From Thermoplasmata archaeon (lineage in GTDB: Archaea; Thermoplasmatota; Penumbrarchaeia; JAEHCK01), in NCBI GenBank assembly GCA_020696345.1, contig JAEHCK010000004.1, positions 22,916-86,915 of the forward strand: DNA of 64,000 nucleotides, in the 5' to 3' direction. Below, in pieces: positions 10,279 to 43,376 of the stretch. The translations under genes were made by a program, and so were the position numbers. The notes under the pieces were generated by a model. The model made no database searches and was not told the origin of the DNA. It saw only the letters and a program-made list of their open reading frames with translations. Each line of letters begins with the position of its first letter. The first letter of the stretch is position 1.

Positions 10279-10550
10279 AATATACCTCACTTGGAATCCT
10301 TCTAAATAGCTGATTATATATTTCAAGGTTTCTATTTAGATTGGTAAGTGTGTTATCCTGTAATTATTTCGTTTCATTTCATATTCACGAATACAAACTC
10401 ACCTAATAAACCTTGACGAAATTTTTCGGGGATAACACAGTGTATCCAAATTACCGAAACATTTATATTAAATTCATACATTCTGTAATAATATCCAAAA
10501 AGTTTATAAATAAAAAGTTATGTTATTTATATGTCAGAATTATCTCTGGC

Positions 10551-10567
10551 AGGAAAGTTTATATATA
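10551..10567 (+). promoter_or_regulatory. Archaeal BRE/TATA-like element (GGAAAG-TTTATATA)
   Basis: AGGAAAGTTTATATATA ~45-60 nt upstream of the RDD-family start; matches archaeal BRE+TATA consensus. Confidence 0.5.
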
Positions 10568-10612
10568 ATAATAGAAAATAGTATTCAATACATTTTCATC
10601 AGAGGTGAGAAA

Positions 10613-11386
10613 ATGGTAGAAGAAGAAGAGGAGTATTTTGTTCCTGAATCAAATTGGGGACGTCGAGCTGGTGCATTTTTCATTGACCTGTTCATTGTTT
10701 TCATTTTGACTTATGCAATATTTCTCCTATTTATTTCGAATTATATGATATTTTTGCCTTTTCCGGTTGATAACCTACTGCTTTTCGTAATATTCTGGAT
10801 AGTTGTTGGAATAATTACGATCGTATTTTCGGGTGTTCTCGAAGGTACTATTGATACCACGGTTGGCAAAGGCGTATTTGGTTTACAGGTCTATTCACTG
10901 GACACCGAGACCATGACCGTGGGCAAAGGCATTCTACGAAGTGTCAGTAAATTGGTCTGGTTCTTTGTGCCGATAGATATGGCTGCAGGAAAAGGTAAGG
11001 GCGACCCACGCCAGCGAGCATTGGACTTATCGGCTAACACGATCGTAGCCGATCGGATGCTTGTTGAGCAGCCAGCAGCTGAACCAAGTGGTTTGCACCG
11101 GGGTGAAATTTATGTTAAACCCATTGAAACCAAGTCGAAGGAAGATAAGGATTCTAAAGGAAAGTTCTCAAAAGAATTCATTGCAAAGCAACTTGCCGCG
11201 GGCAAAGAAGTCCCAATCCCGAAAGAACTTCGGTCCGGCAAATGTTCACGGTGCGGTACTCCATATAATATCGTAAAAAAAGAAGATGGCAGATGGTCCG
11301 GGTTATGGAATTTACGCTGTATATGGTGCAATAAAATGGTTTTCGAGGAATATACACGCCGGTCCCAACCAGGTAAATGGGTGTAA
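10613..11386 (+). CDS. RDD family membrane protein with C-terminal zinc-ribbon-like Cys motifs
   Basis: GRRAGAFFIDLFIVFILTYAIFLLF and GTIDTTVGKGVFGLQVYS; CSRCGTPY...RCIWCNK; GAGGTGAG SD before ATG 10613. Confidence 0.8.
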   Translation: MVEEEEEYFVPESNWGRRAGAFFIDLFIVFILTYAIFLLFISNYMIFLPFPVDNLLLFVIFWIVVGIITIVFSGVLEGTIDTTVGKGVFGLQVYSLDTETMTVGKGILRSVSKLVWFFVPIDMAAGKGKGDPRQRALDLSANTIVADRMLVEQPAAEPSGLHRGEIYVKPIETKSKEDKDSKGKFSKEFIAKQLAAGKEVPIPKELRSGKCSRCGTPYNIVKKEDGRWSGLWNLRCIWCNKMVFEEYTRRSQPGKWV

Positions 11387-11722
11387 TTAATATAGTCTTA
11401 CTCCCGATTTAGGTAAAGATAAAAATTATTATGTTGAAAATAACAAATATATTCAGGGGTCGGGGGTCACAATTTAGGGGTCAGGGTGATTTAGTAATTG
11501 AATTTATTTCGAATTATTTGTAAGTAATTTCACCATATCTGCAAATTGTTTTCTATGCCATATAATGTTAAAGTTTATTTTAAGATTTAATATGAAATGC
11601 ATAATGAACAAAAATATCTATAATTATGGGATAAAAGAAAAAATTAAATTTAGAAACTTAAGAAACCCTGACCCCTCTCGATAACACCTTGGTAATCAAC
11701 ATTAACCATTCAAGTTCATATC

Positions 11723-12129
11723 CACCGAGTAGCGCAGGGGAATTTCACCCCCACGCCCTCACAGAACCGGACGTGAACCTCTCGATTCATCCGGCTCTTA
11801 TTACAGAAGTTTCATCGCTACTACGAGTTGTTCCACCCCTGTGCCCTGGATCGGTATTCTCGGGAGCGGGATCTAATTTATTATTACTGGATTAGGATCG
11901 GGTTCTGATTTGTTTTAGCTGAAATAGGTTCGGGTTAATATCTTATCTACAACCGAGCCTAAACCAACGAAATATATGCAGAGCCTGCCAAGCGGTTTTT
12001 CTACAGAGCCTAACGCAGTGGAGCCCGAGCCCGATAATAATGGAGTGATATCTTAGATTTACATGAATTCTGCTCCTGAAAGCCGACTCCGAGGGACCTA
12101 CCCTCATCTCCTGTGCCACATCGTGGCAC
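11723..12129 (-). mobile_element. ORF-less/degenerate group II intron (domain V and VI recognisable; 5' end candidate GTGCC...)
   Basis: Reverse strand contains GAGCCGGATGAATCGAGAGGTTCACGTCCGGTTC (34-nt domain V), then GTGAGGGCGTGGGGGTGAAATTCCCCTGCGCTACTCG (domain VI with CTACTC 3' end); upstream GGAACAACTCGTAGTAGCGATGAAACTTCTGTAAT; 5' GTGCCACGATGTGGCAC...GAGTCGGCTTTC. Confidence 0.8.
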
Positions 12130-12200
12130 AATGACCCCAGACCCCTAGTTGAACTGATATTATTTACTTTAGAAAGTAATTGGTAACAGCAACCTGGCGG

Positions 12201-13793
12201 CTATTTCCGTGGTTTGATCTTTTCGGTTGAACCTGTAGCGCTCAACATCGTTTGTAAAGAGTTATTATATTCCGGCGGCTCGGACCTGAGTAAATTTTCA
12301 GCCGGGTCTTTTAAAAATTGTGCGAAATCGAACTCGGTCTGTGTGTACTGCCATTTCTTACCCTCACCACGATCCATAGCCAATAAAAATGCATAAGCCA
12401 CCGCTTTCACCTTTGTGTCTCCACCGCGATACTTGTCGATGGCACGAACTGTATCGTCTACACCCTTGGTCATGTATATTCGTGCAATTTGGTCTGCAAA
12501 TTGAGCGATCTCCGGTAGTTTTTCGTATTCTGGCAGCAAAGAAATTATGGTTTTCTTTTTGATCTGAACATCGGCTTCTTTTAGTATTTCCGAAGCTTTG
12601 ATCTTATTGATATCGAACTTTTTATAGGTGTTCTTGGAGATCTTATTGTCGTGTGTAATAGCATATATCGCACTTTTTCCGAACCTGGACCAGTAATGCC
12701 CAAGAATTTTACTTGGAGTCGCCTTGTCGAATACCACGGATTCGTCCGCTTTTTTCATAACAGCCCATAATGCCTTGCGCTCTAGTGGTGTTGGCGATAA
12801 TGCTTTGATGAATGCCTTTAAATTTGATCCGTAACAGTGGTTATTCATGATATAGATATTCCTACCCAGGCTCTGATAACTGCTCCGAAGCTCTTCAAGA
12901 TGTTTAGCGAACAGATCGGAATCCATAATTTCACCCAATTGATATTTTTTTAAAATTTCGGACGAAATGACGGGTGGTTCTTCGATCTCGCAGTCCTTGC
13001 ATTTATCCTTGCAAATGGGTTGTGCGATTATATTTACACTGAAATCGTCTGTCAGGTTTCTATCAGCTATACGCTGTACCAAAATGCCCAGGGTATGGCC
13101 CTTACTCTTCCTGGAACAGCGTTCACAGATACCGAGAGTAATATCTGCAGAGTGCCACTCGATCTCAAGATAAGGTTCGCCTCTCTGCTGGCGTTTTCGT
13201 ACAGCTTTTGGCACGAGGTGCGGGCAGGTATAGACCTGTCCTTTTCGTTCTAAGTTCATCTTTAATCCGCCAATAGCCTCGCGTATGAATTCAGTTGGCG
13301 GTTCCGAGGTACGCCCGGTGCATATCAACCCATTCTTGGTAGCATAAACATGTAATCTCTTCTTTTTTACAATGTCCAATACACCCATCAATAACCATTT
13401 TGGTTCATCATAATGCTGCACTGCCACAAGTTTCTCCTTCTTGGTTTTTCCACGAAATGCGAATTGGACTGTGCCGTATGGTGTCTTAAACGGTGCAAGA
13501 TATGGTGCCTTGCCCTCGATCGCCAGTGTCAAGGTGGCCGCATACGCGCGTGCCAATAGATCACCGCGTGCCGAGAACTTCTTTAACATACGCTCATCAT
13601 CGGCAAAGCTCTGGATGCGCTCTACCTGTTTACGTACAACATCAAAATAGCATCTGCTGTGGCCTATGCATTTTGGTAGAATTAACTCGGGATCCTTCTT
13701 TAACCTCTTTGCTTTTTTAATAAGATCTTTTTCCAGTACCTTTGATGCTGTTCGTGCACCGGTCCGGATTCGATATTTTTTCGTTGATGGCAT
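12201..13793 (-). CDS. Hypothetical protein with Cys-rich (putative zinc) motifs
   Basis: 530 aa ORF; basic N-terminus; CERCSRK, CKDKCKDCE motifs. Confidence 0.7.
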   Translation of the reverse strand: MPSTKKYRIRTGARTASKVLEKDLIKKAKRLKKDPELILPKCIGHSRCYFDVVRKQVERIQSFADDERMLKKFSARGDLLARAYAATLTLAIEGKAPYLAPFKTPYGTVQFAFRGKTKKEKLVAVQHYDEPKWLLMGVLDIVKKKRLHVYATKNGLICTGRTSEPPTEFIREAIGGLKMNLERKGQVYTCPHLVPKAVRKRQQRGEPYLEIEWHSADITLGICERCSRKSKGHTLGILVQRIADRNLTDDFSVNIIAQPICKDKCKDCEIEEPPVISSEILKKYQLGEIMDSDLFAKHLEELRSSYQSLGRNIYIMNNHCYGSNLKAFIKALSPTPLERKALWAVMKKADESVVFDKATPSKILGHYWSRFGKSAIYAITHDNKISKNTYKKFDINKIKASEILKEADVQIKKKTIISLLPEYEKLPEIAQFADQIARIYMTKGVDDTVRAIDKYRGGDTKVKAVAYAFLLAMDRGEGKKWQYTQTEFDFAQFLKDPAENLLRSEPPEYNNSLQTMLSATGSTEKIKPRK

Positions 13794-17040: not shown

Positions 17041-18726
17041 TTATGGAAGTGGCGTTGTAATCGTGTACTCAATGAATATTCCTTCCAGATGGATATCCGT
17101 GGGGTTCGTTGGCACTTTCCATAGCGCATGTACGAGGTACACATTGGTTGTTGAGTTGACCGGGGTAAAGGAGACCGAAGTTGTACTCAACGTTGATCGT
17201 CCGGGAGTACCGCTGCTCGACAACGCACCAGTCATTCCCCCCATACCCCCCGTACTTGGATTGTAACGAAGGAGCGACACTGTAATATCTTCTGTCGAGT
17301 CGCTGTCTTTGATGTACGCAGTGAATTTTGTAATGTCCGCGCCGTCTGGAAGCTGGACGGAAGCATAGAAACTGACGGTCTGTGCGGAGGTAGTGCCTCT
17401 TATATTGTGATAACTTCCATAATTATCGATGCAATACGAATAGCTACTTGACCCAGGGGCGAATTCACTTGGTGGTATCGAGAGGTGGCGTGTTGTTATC
17501 GGAATTGTGATGCTACCATCGACTTTCAAATTACCTGCTATGTGCAACTTTTCTGTCGGGTTCGTTGTGCCGATGCCGACATTGCCGGAAAAATATGCAG
17601 TTCCGTCGTTCACCACCCAAAACCGGTTGGCGCCACCAGTGCGGATACGGAAGGCCAGATAGTTAGGGTCTGAACTGCCTGTATCTACTGTCATGCCTAA
17701 GCCTGTCGTTGACGGATTTACAATTTTGGCCGCCCATTGACCACCTATATTGTGCTCGACATGAAGGCGGGTTATTGGATTCGTCGTCCCTATGCCGACA
17801 TTACCTGATGTTGTGTATACATTTCCTGTACCAGTCCATGAATCATCAGTATCATCATACCCAACTGCTGCGTGGTCACCCCAGCCGTAGGCGGTGTTCC
17901 ATTGACCGGAATTACCACCTGTGGCAGTGATGACACCGTTAACTTCTAACTTGGTTGACGGGCTCGTCGTGCCGATGCCGACATTGCCGGAAAAATATGC
18001 AGTTCCGTCGTTCACCACCCAAAACCGGTTGGCGCCACCAGTGCGGATACGGAAAGCCAGATAATTAGGATCTGAGCTACCTGTATCTACTGTCATGCCT
18101 AAGCCTGTCGTTGACGGATTTACAATTTTGGCCGCCCATTGGCCACCTATATTGTGCTCGACATGAAGGCGGGTTATTGGATTCGTCGTCCCTATGCCGA
18201 CATTACCTGATGTTGTGTATACATTTCCTGTACCAATCCATGAATCATCAGTATCATCATACCCAACTGCTGCGTGGTCACCCCAGCCGTAGGCGGTATC
18301 CCAATTGCCTATTTGTGTACCTGTAATACCTGCCGCCGGGCTAACACCGAACACGGGGTCGGTCTCGGTGTATGATGACATATACCCAGCTGCTGCATGA
18401 TCGCCCCAGCCGTAGGCGGTGTTCCATTGACCAGAATTACCGCCTGTTGCGGTAATGACACCGTTCACGTCCAGCTCAGTTGTGGGCGCTGCAGTCCCGA
18501 TACCAACCTTGCCATCTGCTGTAATAACCATCCTCTGTTGACCATTTGTAACTATCCTCAGATCTTGGTTATTTGTCGTTCCAAAAACATCGCTGCTGCT
18601 GACTGAATTGCCTTGTGTGCTCCATTTTTTACCGGCCGCTGCGTTCACCGACGGGGCCAAGGTCATTGTTACAAGCAAAACCAATGTTAGCAACATGATG
18701 ATCTTTCCAATTTTTCTAACTTTCAT
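17041..18726 (-). CDS. Secreted fibre/adhesin-like repeat protein ('GIGTTxPxxxLxVxG', 'AYGWGDHAAxGY', 'YTETDPVFG' repeats), copy 1
   Basis: 561 aa, signal peptide; shares N-terminal ~150 aa with 19282..21090; internal near-identical duplication. Confidence 0.75.
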   Translation of the reverse strand: MKVRKIGKIIMLLTLVLLVTMTLAPSVNAAAGKKWSTQGNSVSSSDVFGTTNNQDLRIVTNGQQRMVITADGKVGIGTAAPTTELDVNGVITATGGNSGQWNTAYGWGDHAAAGYMSSYTETDPVFGVSPAAGITGTQIGNWDTAYGWGDHAAVGYDDTDDSWIGTGNVYTTSGNVGIGTTNPITRLHVEHNIGGQWAAKIVNPSTTGLGMTVDTGSSDPNYLAFRIRTGGANRFWVVNDGTAYFSGNVGIGTTSPSTKLEVNGVITATGGNSGQWNTAYGWGDHAAVGYDDTDDSWTGTGNVYTTSGNVGIGTTNPITRLHVEHNIGGQWAAKIVNPSTTGLGMTVDTGSSDPNYLAFRIRTGGANRFWVVNDGTAYFSGNVGIGTTNPTEKLHIAGNLKVDGSITIPITTRHLSIPPSEFAPGSSSYSYCIDNYGSYHNIRGTTSAQTVSFYASVQLPDGADITKFTAYIKDSDSTEDITVSLLRYNPSTGGMGGMTGALSSSGTPGRSTLSTTSVSFTPVNSTTNVYLVHALWKVPTNPTDIHLEGIFIEYTITTPLP

Positions 18727-19281: not shown

Positions 19282-21090
19282 TTAATGTACTACACAAACA
19301 TAGTCTCCGTTTCTGTAGAATGCTCCTACTGTTAGTCCACCCGATATGGCTGCTGTATTACTTCCGTATGATGGAAGTCCAACAACATGTAACGCGCTTG
19401 TGGGTGCTGTGGTTCCGATGCCGACGTTTCCATTCGAGGCTACTAATAGGTCTGGTGCTGCCGGTGCAACGTAGGTTTTGAAGGTATAATCGCTTATGCC
19501 ATAATAGGTTTTTAGATCATTGGTTCCGCCCGGATAAGGGTCGCCTCCTGCCTTCCACAACATACCGGTTCCACTTGAATAAGGATTGGAACCCTGTACA
19601 CGATAAGTGTATATGCTACCACCAGTAACATCCACTGGTGTGCTGAGTGTGCAAGCTACCCAGGCGTATTTATTCCCACCAGTAATGGATTGAGTGTGTA
19701 ATAGCGTACCGCCAACTCCTTGACCCGAATAGATTTTCAATGTAAAAGTGGCTGTTGTCGAGGGATTCCGCCACATCAAGTCCAGGCGCGTCAACTGACC
19801 ACTCACTCCGGGTGTGAATGATTGCCAGTTGTCGGAATCACTTGGTTGATAATGGGAAAGGGCGGTCTGGAACTGGTCCAATGCTGCCGGGCCAAAAGAG
19901 TTTCCAGTTGTTACTTCGAATTTGCCAGTAGGGGTTGCGGTTCCGATACCAACTTTACCATTGTTAAGCACTAATTGGTTAGTTCCAGCCACCAGTCCAT
20001 TCGTGGGAAGGTTGAGTATTCCAGTCATGGTGTCGCCAGCCTTTTCTACCCATACATCACCTGCTCCACCTGCAACTAAACCTAGGTTGGTTCGTGCGAT
20101 GGCAGCATTTAGACCAGTGGAGCCGCCATCCCATTTCAATCGATCAGTGTAAGCAGTGTTCCAATTGGAAACCTGTGTGGCAGTTATTCCCCCTGCGGGG
20201 CTTGCACCGTAAACTGGGTCGGTCTCGGTAAAGCTTGTCAAATAACCGTTATTGGCGACATAAGCATCCACTTGTCCTTCTGATAGTTGTGTATTGTCGT
20301 CACCATCAGCGATTCCAGCGGGTATGCCGGAAAGCTCAGACCAGTCGATACCGTCCTTTACGGAAGCAAGAACAGTGGGGTCGGTCTCGTCAGTGTTCGT
20401 GAAATGGTCGAGATCACTAATCTGGCTCTCGGTTATGGAAATACCTGTGCTTTTATCCCATGCACCGAACACCGGGTCGGTCTCGGTGTATGATGTGAGA
20501 TACCCCGCTGTTGCATGATCGCCCCAGCCATAGGCAGTATTCCATTCTGATACATCCGTACCATCTATCCCAAATGCAGTGCTTGCACCAAACACTGGAT
20601 CTGTTTCGGTGTACGAGGTTAGATAACCCACTGTGCTGTGGTCACCCCAGCCGTAGGCGGTATCCCAATTGGCTATTTGTGTACCTGTAATACCTGCCGC
20701 CGGGCTAACACCGAACACGGGGTCGGTCTCGGTGTACGATGACATATACCCGGCCGCTGCATGGTCGCCCCAGCCGTATGCGGTGTTCCATTGGCCAGAA
20801 TTGCCGCCTGTTGCAGTAATGACACCGTTCACGTCCAGCTCAGTTGTGGGCGCTGCAGTCCCGATACCAACCTTGCCATCTGCTGTAATAACCATCCTCT
20901 GTTGACCATTTGTAACGATCCTCAGATCTTGGTTATTTGTCGTTCCAAAAACATCGCTGCTGCTGACTGAATTGCCTTGTGTGCTCCATTTTTTACCGGC
21001 CGCTGCGTTCACCGACGGAGCCAAGGTCATTGTTACAAGCAAAACCAATGTCATAAGCATGATTATTTTTCCAATTTTACTAACTTTCAT
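19282..21090 (-). CDS. Secreted fibre/adhesin-like repeat protein, copy 2
   Basis: 602 aa, signal peptide; same N-terminal repeats as copy 1; divergent C-terminal half. Confidence 0.75.
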   Translation of the reverse strand: MKVSKIGKIIMLMTLVLLVTMTLAPSVNAAAGKKWSTQGNSVSSSDVFGTTNNQDLRIVTNGQQRMVITADGKVGIGTAAPTTELDVNGVITATGGNSGQWNTAYGWGDHAAAGYMSSYTETDPVFGVSPAAGITGTQIANWDTAYGWGDHSTVGYLTSYTETDPVFGASTAFGIDGTDVSEWNTAYGWGDHATAGYLTSYTETDPVFGAWDKSTGISITESQISDLDHFTNTDETDPTVLASVKDGIDWSELSGIPAGIADGDDNTQLSEGQVDAYVANNGYLTSFTETDPVYGASPAGGITATQVSNWNTAYTDRLKWDGGSTGLNAAIARTNLGLVAGGAGDVWVEKAGDTMTGILNLPTNGLVAGTNQLVLNNGKVGIGTATPTGKFEVTTGNSFGPAALDQFQTALSHYQPSDSDNWQSFTPGVSGQLTRLDLMWRNPSTTATFTLKIYSGQGVGGTLLHTQSITGGNKYAWVACTLSTPVDVTGGSIYTYRVQGSNPYSSGTGMLWKAGGDPYPGGTNDLKTYYGISDYTFKTYVAPAAPDLLVASNGNVGIGTTAPTSALHVVGLPSYGSNTAAISGGLTVGAFYRNGDYVCVVH

Positions 21091-43112: not shown

Positions 43113-43376
43113 TAACAGGGGTCGGGGTTTGAACTCATATATTTGATGCAGGGGACATTTGAAAAGTCAAATTGTAAATTGTAAAAAATTTGAAAGTGTA
43201 AAAATAAATCCAAATTTTTCAATTTGCATTCTCCAATTTCCAATTTCCAATTGCCTTAGCATACATGTTGCGGGTTAACCCCCGACCCCTAGTTGATGCT
43301 TAACATTTTTATTTTATGTTTCAACAGGATATTTTCCTGCTCCCTTAAATCGGGAGAAGAACCATTATTATTAATT

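Follow-up and report, generated by a model that had tools for sequence, protein, structure and literature searches.

Is the group II intron sequence that lies in an intergenic spacer of this Thermoplasmata archaeon an isolated relic, or does it belong to something that has spread through the genome? The window, by which we mean the whole 64,000-nucleotide stretch of DNA analysed here, carries this sequence on its minus strand between two genes that converge on it, one of the RDD family (10520-11386, +) and one for an unassigned 530-aa protein (12201-13793, -). It runs in the sense of the latter gene, in the spacer about 70 nt beyond its stop codon. Genes for ribosomal protein S8e and archease are neighbours, which identifies the host as an archaeon, and the genome examined is a bin of 4.97 Mb in 272 contigs. 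Elsewhere in the window, the protein encoded at 17041-18726 contains repeated blocks (VGIGTTNPITRLHVEHNIGG, WNTAYGWGDHAAVGY) resembling those of phage tail fibres or adhesins, with similar DNA at 20377-20719. A preliminary description of the locus had correctly placed the sequence between genes on the minus strand and had called it the remnant of an ORF-less group II intron. The origin and the lack of an ORF both stand; what the description did not notice is that most of domain I is gone and that a foreign repeat takes its place.

Borders and anatomy of the window copy

When the window flanks are joined, they match an intron-free repeat on contig C196 without a gap over 75 nt (89%), so the group II-derived insert is 12131..11724 on the minus strand, 408 nt reading TTGTGCC...CTACTCGGT, and the junction shows no target-site duplication relative to the empty C196 site. 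This comparison moves the ends from 11723 and 12129, as they had been placed, to 11724 and 12131, and it makes UUGUG, not GUGCC, the real 5' end. The precise, sequence-specific insertion without duplication that characterises group II introns is therefore seen here, both in the C196 match and in the shared GGGGTC-type 5' exon. A second, larger homologous copy without an intron, on C35, has a junction that differs by 7 nt (one GGGGTC vs two). The parts of the locus are as follows.

11724..12131 (-): entire chimeric intron-derived element, 408 nt, TTGTGCCACG...CTACTCGGT; ends set by the joined flanks against C196 and common to other copies
12132..12146 (-): 5' exon or target motif, AGGGGTCTGGGGTCA, which precedes other chimeric copies and is present in empty sites
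12064..12131 (-): 5' arm, the start of domain I of a group II intron (~68 nt), with U1 replacing G1; 81% to nt 1-68 of the related intron L004
11860..12060 (-): ~200-nt dispersed repeat (R element) instead of the remaining domain I/II; 92% to a free-standing intergenic copy at C244:12498-12702
11800..11859 (-): segment that stands immediately 5' of domain IV/ORF in the RT-bearing relative, the domain III region by position; 90% to L004 nt 385-444
11764..11797 (-): intact 34-nt domain V; RF00029, 58.2 bits
11727..11760 (-): domain VI with a bulged branch-point A at 11730, followed by the 3' end CGGT; RF00029 and fold
11664..11723 (-): 3' exon, the other part of the host repeat, GGATATGAACTTGAATGG...AGGGGTCAGGG; unit present 13 times in the genome, this copy included

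Domains V and VI are those of a group II intron. RF00029 (domain V/VI; cut-off 40 bits) has one match in the window, at 11799-11724(-), with 58.2 bits and E = 7.6e-9 (window), in agreement with the canonical 34-nt domain V and the domain VI that had been read from the letters. The folding check proposed at that stage gave the same answer, with the single bulged A of domain VI present in both the minimum-energy and the centroid fold and located at the 7th base from the 3' end, within the 7-8 nt of group II introns. Over domains V-VI the window copy is 99% identical to L004 (contig C138), a related ORF-deleted intron. RF01999 (domain I; cut-off 36 bits) finds a complete domain I core in L004 (113.8 bits) and, in the window copy, a partial match to the first ~41 positions of the model that falls under the cut-off (12105-12063, 30.8 bits); a domain I with exon-binding sites is missing. 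Nucleotides 69-384 and 445-611 of L004 are absent from the window copy, the R element stands where L004 has nt 69-384, and with domain IV and the ORF gone there is no intron-encoded protein in cis, as had been claimed. The GTAGTAGCGATGAAACTTC segment, which had been assigned to the interval between the stop codon of such a protein and domain V, is found ahead of the ORF in L061, the RT-bearing relative (205-225, with the ORF from 307). The window copy is a chimeric derivative of a group II intron that has kept both termini and lost domains I and IV, and it lacks two defining group II features, domain I and canonical ends: by the empty-site definition its ends are UUGUG and GGU, where group II introns have 5' GUGYG and 3' AY. 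It is now probably inert.

The R element is represented by 46 matched pieces in the genome, and about ten loci have no adjoining intron sequence; the free-standing copy on C244 folds strongly (z = -4.3). We rejected the idea that R is a divergent domain I, since L042 gave no Rfam match at E <= 0.1 and R has no similarity to the L004 intron. The host repeat that supplies the 3' exon is likewise dispersed, its copies including the window one and several without an intron. The exact double motif GGGGTCNGGGGTCA occurs 29 times in the genome and never in the reversed control, in line with the earlier remark that GACCCCT-type motifs, here the GGGGTC flanks, border the element on both sides and recur elsewhere. 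Repeats of the GGGGTC type, dispersed and often accompanied by inverted copies close by (TIR-like), also lie in the window at 11455-11490, 1043-1070 and 43118-43289. They are probably short mobile units in which the introns reside.

A dispersed family with common internal junctions

RF00029 matches at least 42 domain V copies in the bin, an unusual number, given that a survey of complete archaeal genomes published in 2022 counted no more than 10 group II introns in any of them (PMC8919778). The word remnant thus fits the catalytic ability of the window copy, with domains I and IV gone, and misses its membership in a dispersed family. Two types of copy can be told apart by their ends. G1-type copies start with GTGTG and end in CGAC or CGAT, a 5' exon ending in AGAATTC is common to nine, and domain I scores above the cut-off in 10 of the 14 G1-type 5' ends listed. 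U1-type copies start with TTGTG or TTGTA, domain I is found in 0 of about 15, and in most of them the 5' exon terminates with a motif containing GGGG, commonly GGGGTCNGGGGTCN. Strict covariation between the first and the penultimate nucleotide (G1:A vs U1:G) was rejected as a general rule, because C124, C89 and C197 combine U1 with A.

What unites the chimeric copies is their 5' side. The left junction GAATTCATG|TAAATCTAAGATATC (intron|repeat) is common to nine copies on eight contigs, and the 5' arm of C129 differs from that of C97, C238, C61, C41, C69 or C31 at 0-2 positions in 81 nt, with 0/81 differences among C129, C97, C61 and C31. The proposal that the arms evolve more slowly than the interior was rejected, a significant difference appearing in some pairs only. 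The inner repeat differs in patches between copies, a clear sign of recombination or gene conversion, through which interiors could have been spread. The interiors of C129 and C97 consist of the repeat, the domain III segment and domain V, and these are complete copies with domain VI; C41 has the repeat, another hairpin repeat and a domain V without its 5' strand, the catalytic one; C123 has the repeat, scraps of domain I and a broken domain V. A domain V without its 5' strand also occurs in C31 (seen from the 5' side) and in C8 and C115 (seen from the 3' side), which places such copies at two or more unlinked sites (both halves in C41, one half each in C31, C8 and C115). Mini forms of ~200 nt or less are present on C124, C89, C23 and C208. 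One of them, L015 (C23:3268-3381), is a 114-nt mini-intron whose 5' arm is joined straight to domain V at a shared GAGCCGG, as a deletion between short direct repeats would produce; two forms similar to it, with the same 5' flank, lie at C23:13710 and C208:1228.

Contig ends truncate many of the chimeric copies, and both ends at a single site are seen for C129, C97 and C123 only. Further 3' ends with differing 3' flanks lie on C134, C188, C209, C8 and C115, and the 3' flanks of the copies read GGATATG, GATGGTAAT, GGTTGGAAA, GGAGTTCGG, CAATTTAGG and GAAACAGTT. Empty counterparts were identified for C41 (on C198, 96% over 100 nt) and for C69 (on C244, 92% over 88 nt), and the left flanks of C41 and C69 belong to different repeats. 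The 3' end of C115 joins CAATTTAGGGGTCAG, which in the window at 11456-11490 follows GGGGTCGGGGGTCA uninterrupted. Taken together, the different left-flank repeats and the C115 junction indicate insertions of the family into GGGGTC sites of several kinds. The window copy is not an isolated relic; it is a member of a dispersed chimeric family whose copies have internal junctions in common and stand precisely at GGGGTC-type motifs. None of 56 related genomes from its phylum contains the chimera.

The bin contains one reverse transcriptase, a group II RT/maturase on C220 (TIGR04416, 428 bits, with a GIIM domain) whose relatives by contig scan are bacterial only, at about 60% identity. Its intron is ~99% identical to the window copy over domain V-VI. 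Of the two things expected of an ORF-less intron driven in trans, a related RT-bearing intron in the same genome is therefore present, and a competent ribozyme core is missing from the window copy, which lacks domain I. Two further high-copy group II families were seen, with 14 and 5 near-identical 3' ends and other 3' exons; the assembly breaks at their copies (for example on C29, C33, C39, C48, C74 and C103), and their RT is not in the bin. At L021 (C89:82338-82371) introns stand in tandem, the 3' end of one abutting the GTGTGCC 5' end of the next with no exon between them.

Proposed mobilisation in trans and its alternatives

On balance, we infer that these copies form a terminus-defined, non-autonomous group II intron family that was mobilised in trans. 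A single hollow source would have been copied to several sites, both recognition and catalysis being provided in trans, and the family would thus have spread as a unit. The two intron termini would act as cis signals, and a related full-length intron would provide the ribozyme core and/or the reverse transcriptase, much as short non-autonomous retroelements rely on partner machinery. Catalysis in cis cannot explain the copies with a broken domain V at two or more sites. The suggested search for full-length relatives with an RT was productive in part: an RT-bearing intron exists, but no driver with matching target specificity was found in the bin, because its only RT belongs to a G1-type intron, and the sister copies of that intron have ...GAATTC as their target instead of GGGGTC. 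Since many contigs begin or terminate within an intron, full-length interiors of high copy number have probably escaped binning, and little can be concluded from the lack of a driver in the bin. A bolder version of the proposal, in which the 5' tip, the distal strand of domain V and domain VI suffice as cis signals and site-specific retro-insertion is catalysed wholly in trans by the RNA and protein of another intron, strikes us as rather unlikely.

Several other histories could produce copies of this kind. In the main alternative, competent full-length introns entered the GGGGTC sites and were hollowed later by deletions between short direct repeats and by gene conversion with other repeats, which would also have spread their interiors. 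The fusion of 5' arm and domain V at C23:3268-3381 displays such a deletion, the interiors are mosaics of repeats found elsewhere, the inner repeat differs in patches, and decay by fragmentation has been described for bacterial group II introns (PMC4496777). Even so, a U1-type copy with domain I was seen nowhere in the assembly, even though domain I of G1-type copies is captured at contig ends, and unlinked sites that carry an identical 5' arm and internal junction must have drawn on a single source; we regard this course as possible but doubtful. Alternatively, an intron may have entered one GGGGTC-bounded repeat and then been carried along by DNA transposition of that repeat. Every best target does lie within dispersed GGGGTC-bounded repeats, but the 3' flanks differ and the left flanks come from different repeats, each with its own empty copies, which indicates that the insertions were independent and makes a passenger history improbable.

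That the window copy is a functional ORF-less intron, spliced in trans from its transcript, might be argued from its intact domain V, domain VI and branch A and from its sense orientation downstream of a gene. Against this, both terminal nucleotides are non-canonical (U1, and G for the penultimate A), domain I is absent, and the element lies outside coding sequence, where splicing would not be selected, so we consider this very improbable. It is scarcely credible that metagenome assembly fused an intron with a repeat: the bin has 272 contigs and many of them do terminate in introns, but the junction occurs with sequence variants on eight contigs, one of them 86.9 kb long and bearing archaeal genes.

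Relation to known group II systems

Dai and Zimmerly reportedly described, in 2003, archaeal ORF-less group II introns in Methanosarcina that home into intron ORFs. Compared by description, not sequence, those introns resemble the window family in their archaeal host and in the presence of ORF-less copies beside RT-bearing ones, and differ from it in that the target here is intergenic GGGGTC repeats and the core has been replaced. In Thermosynechococcus elongatus, ORF-less TeI3 introns are driven by TeI4 proteins (PMC2882425). As proposed for the window family, one ancestral deletion was followed there by the multiplication of ORF-less copies beside related RT-bearing introns, but TeI3 has lost only the domain IV ORF and keeps the ribozyme and its exon-binding sites (PMC2882425), whereas the window family has lost domain I and, in some copies, half of domain V as well. 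The group III introns of Euglena chloroplasts offer a likeness in their extreme domain loss, retained ends and presumed help in trans; they lie within genes and retain motifs of domains I and VI (PMC2882425, PMC4424553), whereas the window family has kept domain V-VI together with the 5' tip and occupies spacers. Circularly permuted group II RNAs likewise have rearranged domains in prokaryotes, but in those domains V-VI precede domain I (PMC8637638), while the window copy has the canonical order. Circular permutation was accordingly rejected for the window copy, in which the 5' arm precedes domain V and no domain I match lies downstream.

The non-autonomous prokaryotic group II introns in the literature compared here keep their ribozyme, and our literature search found no relevant paper on chimeric or MITE-like group II introns. 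A dispersed family without a domain I scaffold, and partly without domain V, would capture, in a living archaeon, the transition from a self-contained ribozyme to intron ends served in trans, a step that is assumed in models of spliceosome origin. If insertion from termini only is indeed what happened, it would be a natural counterpart, in prokaryotes, to introns whose catalytic core has been handed over to a common machine acting in trans.
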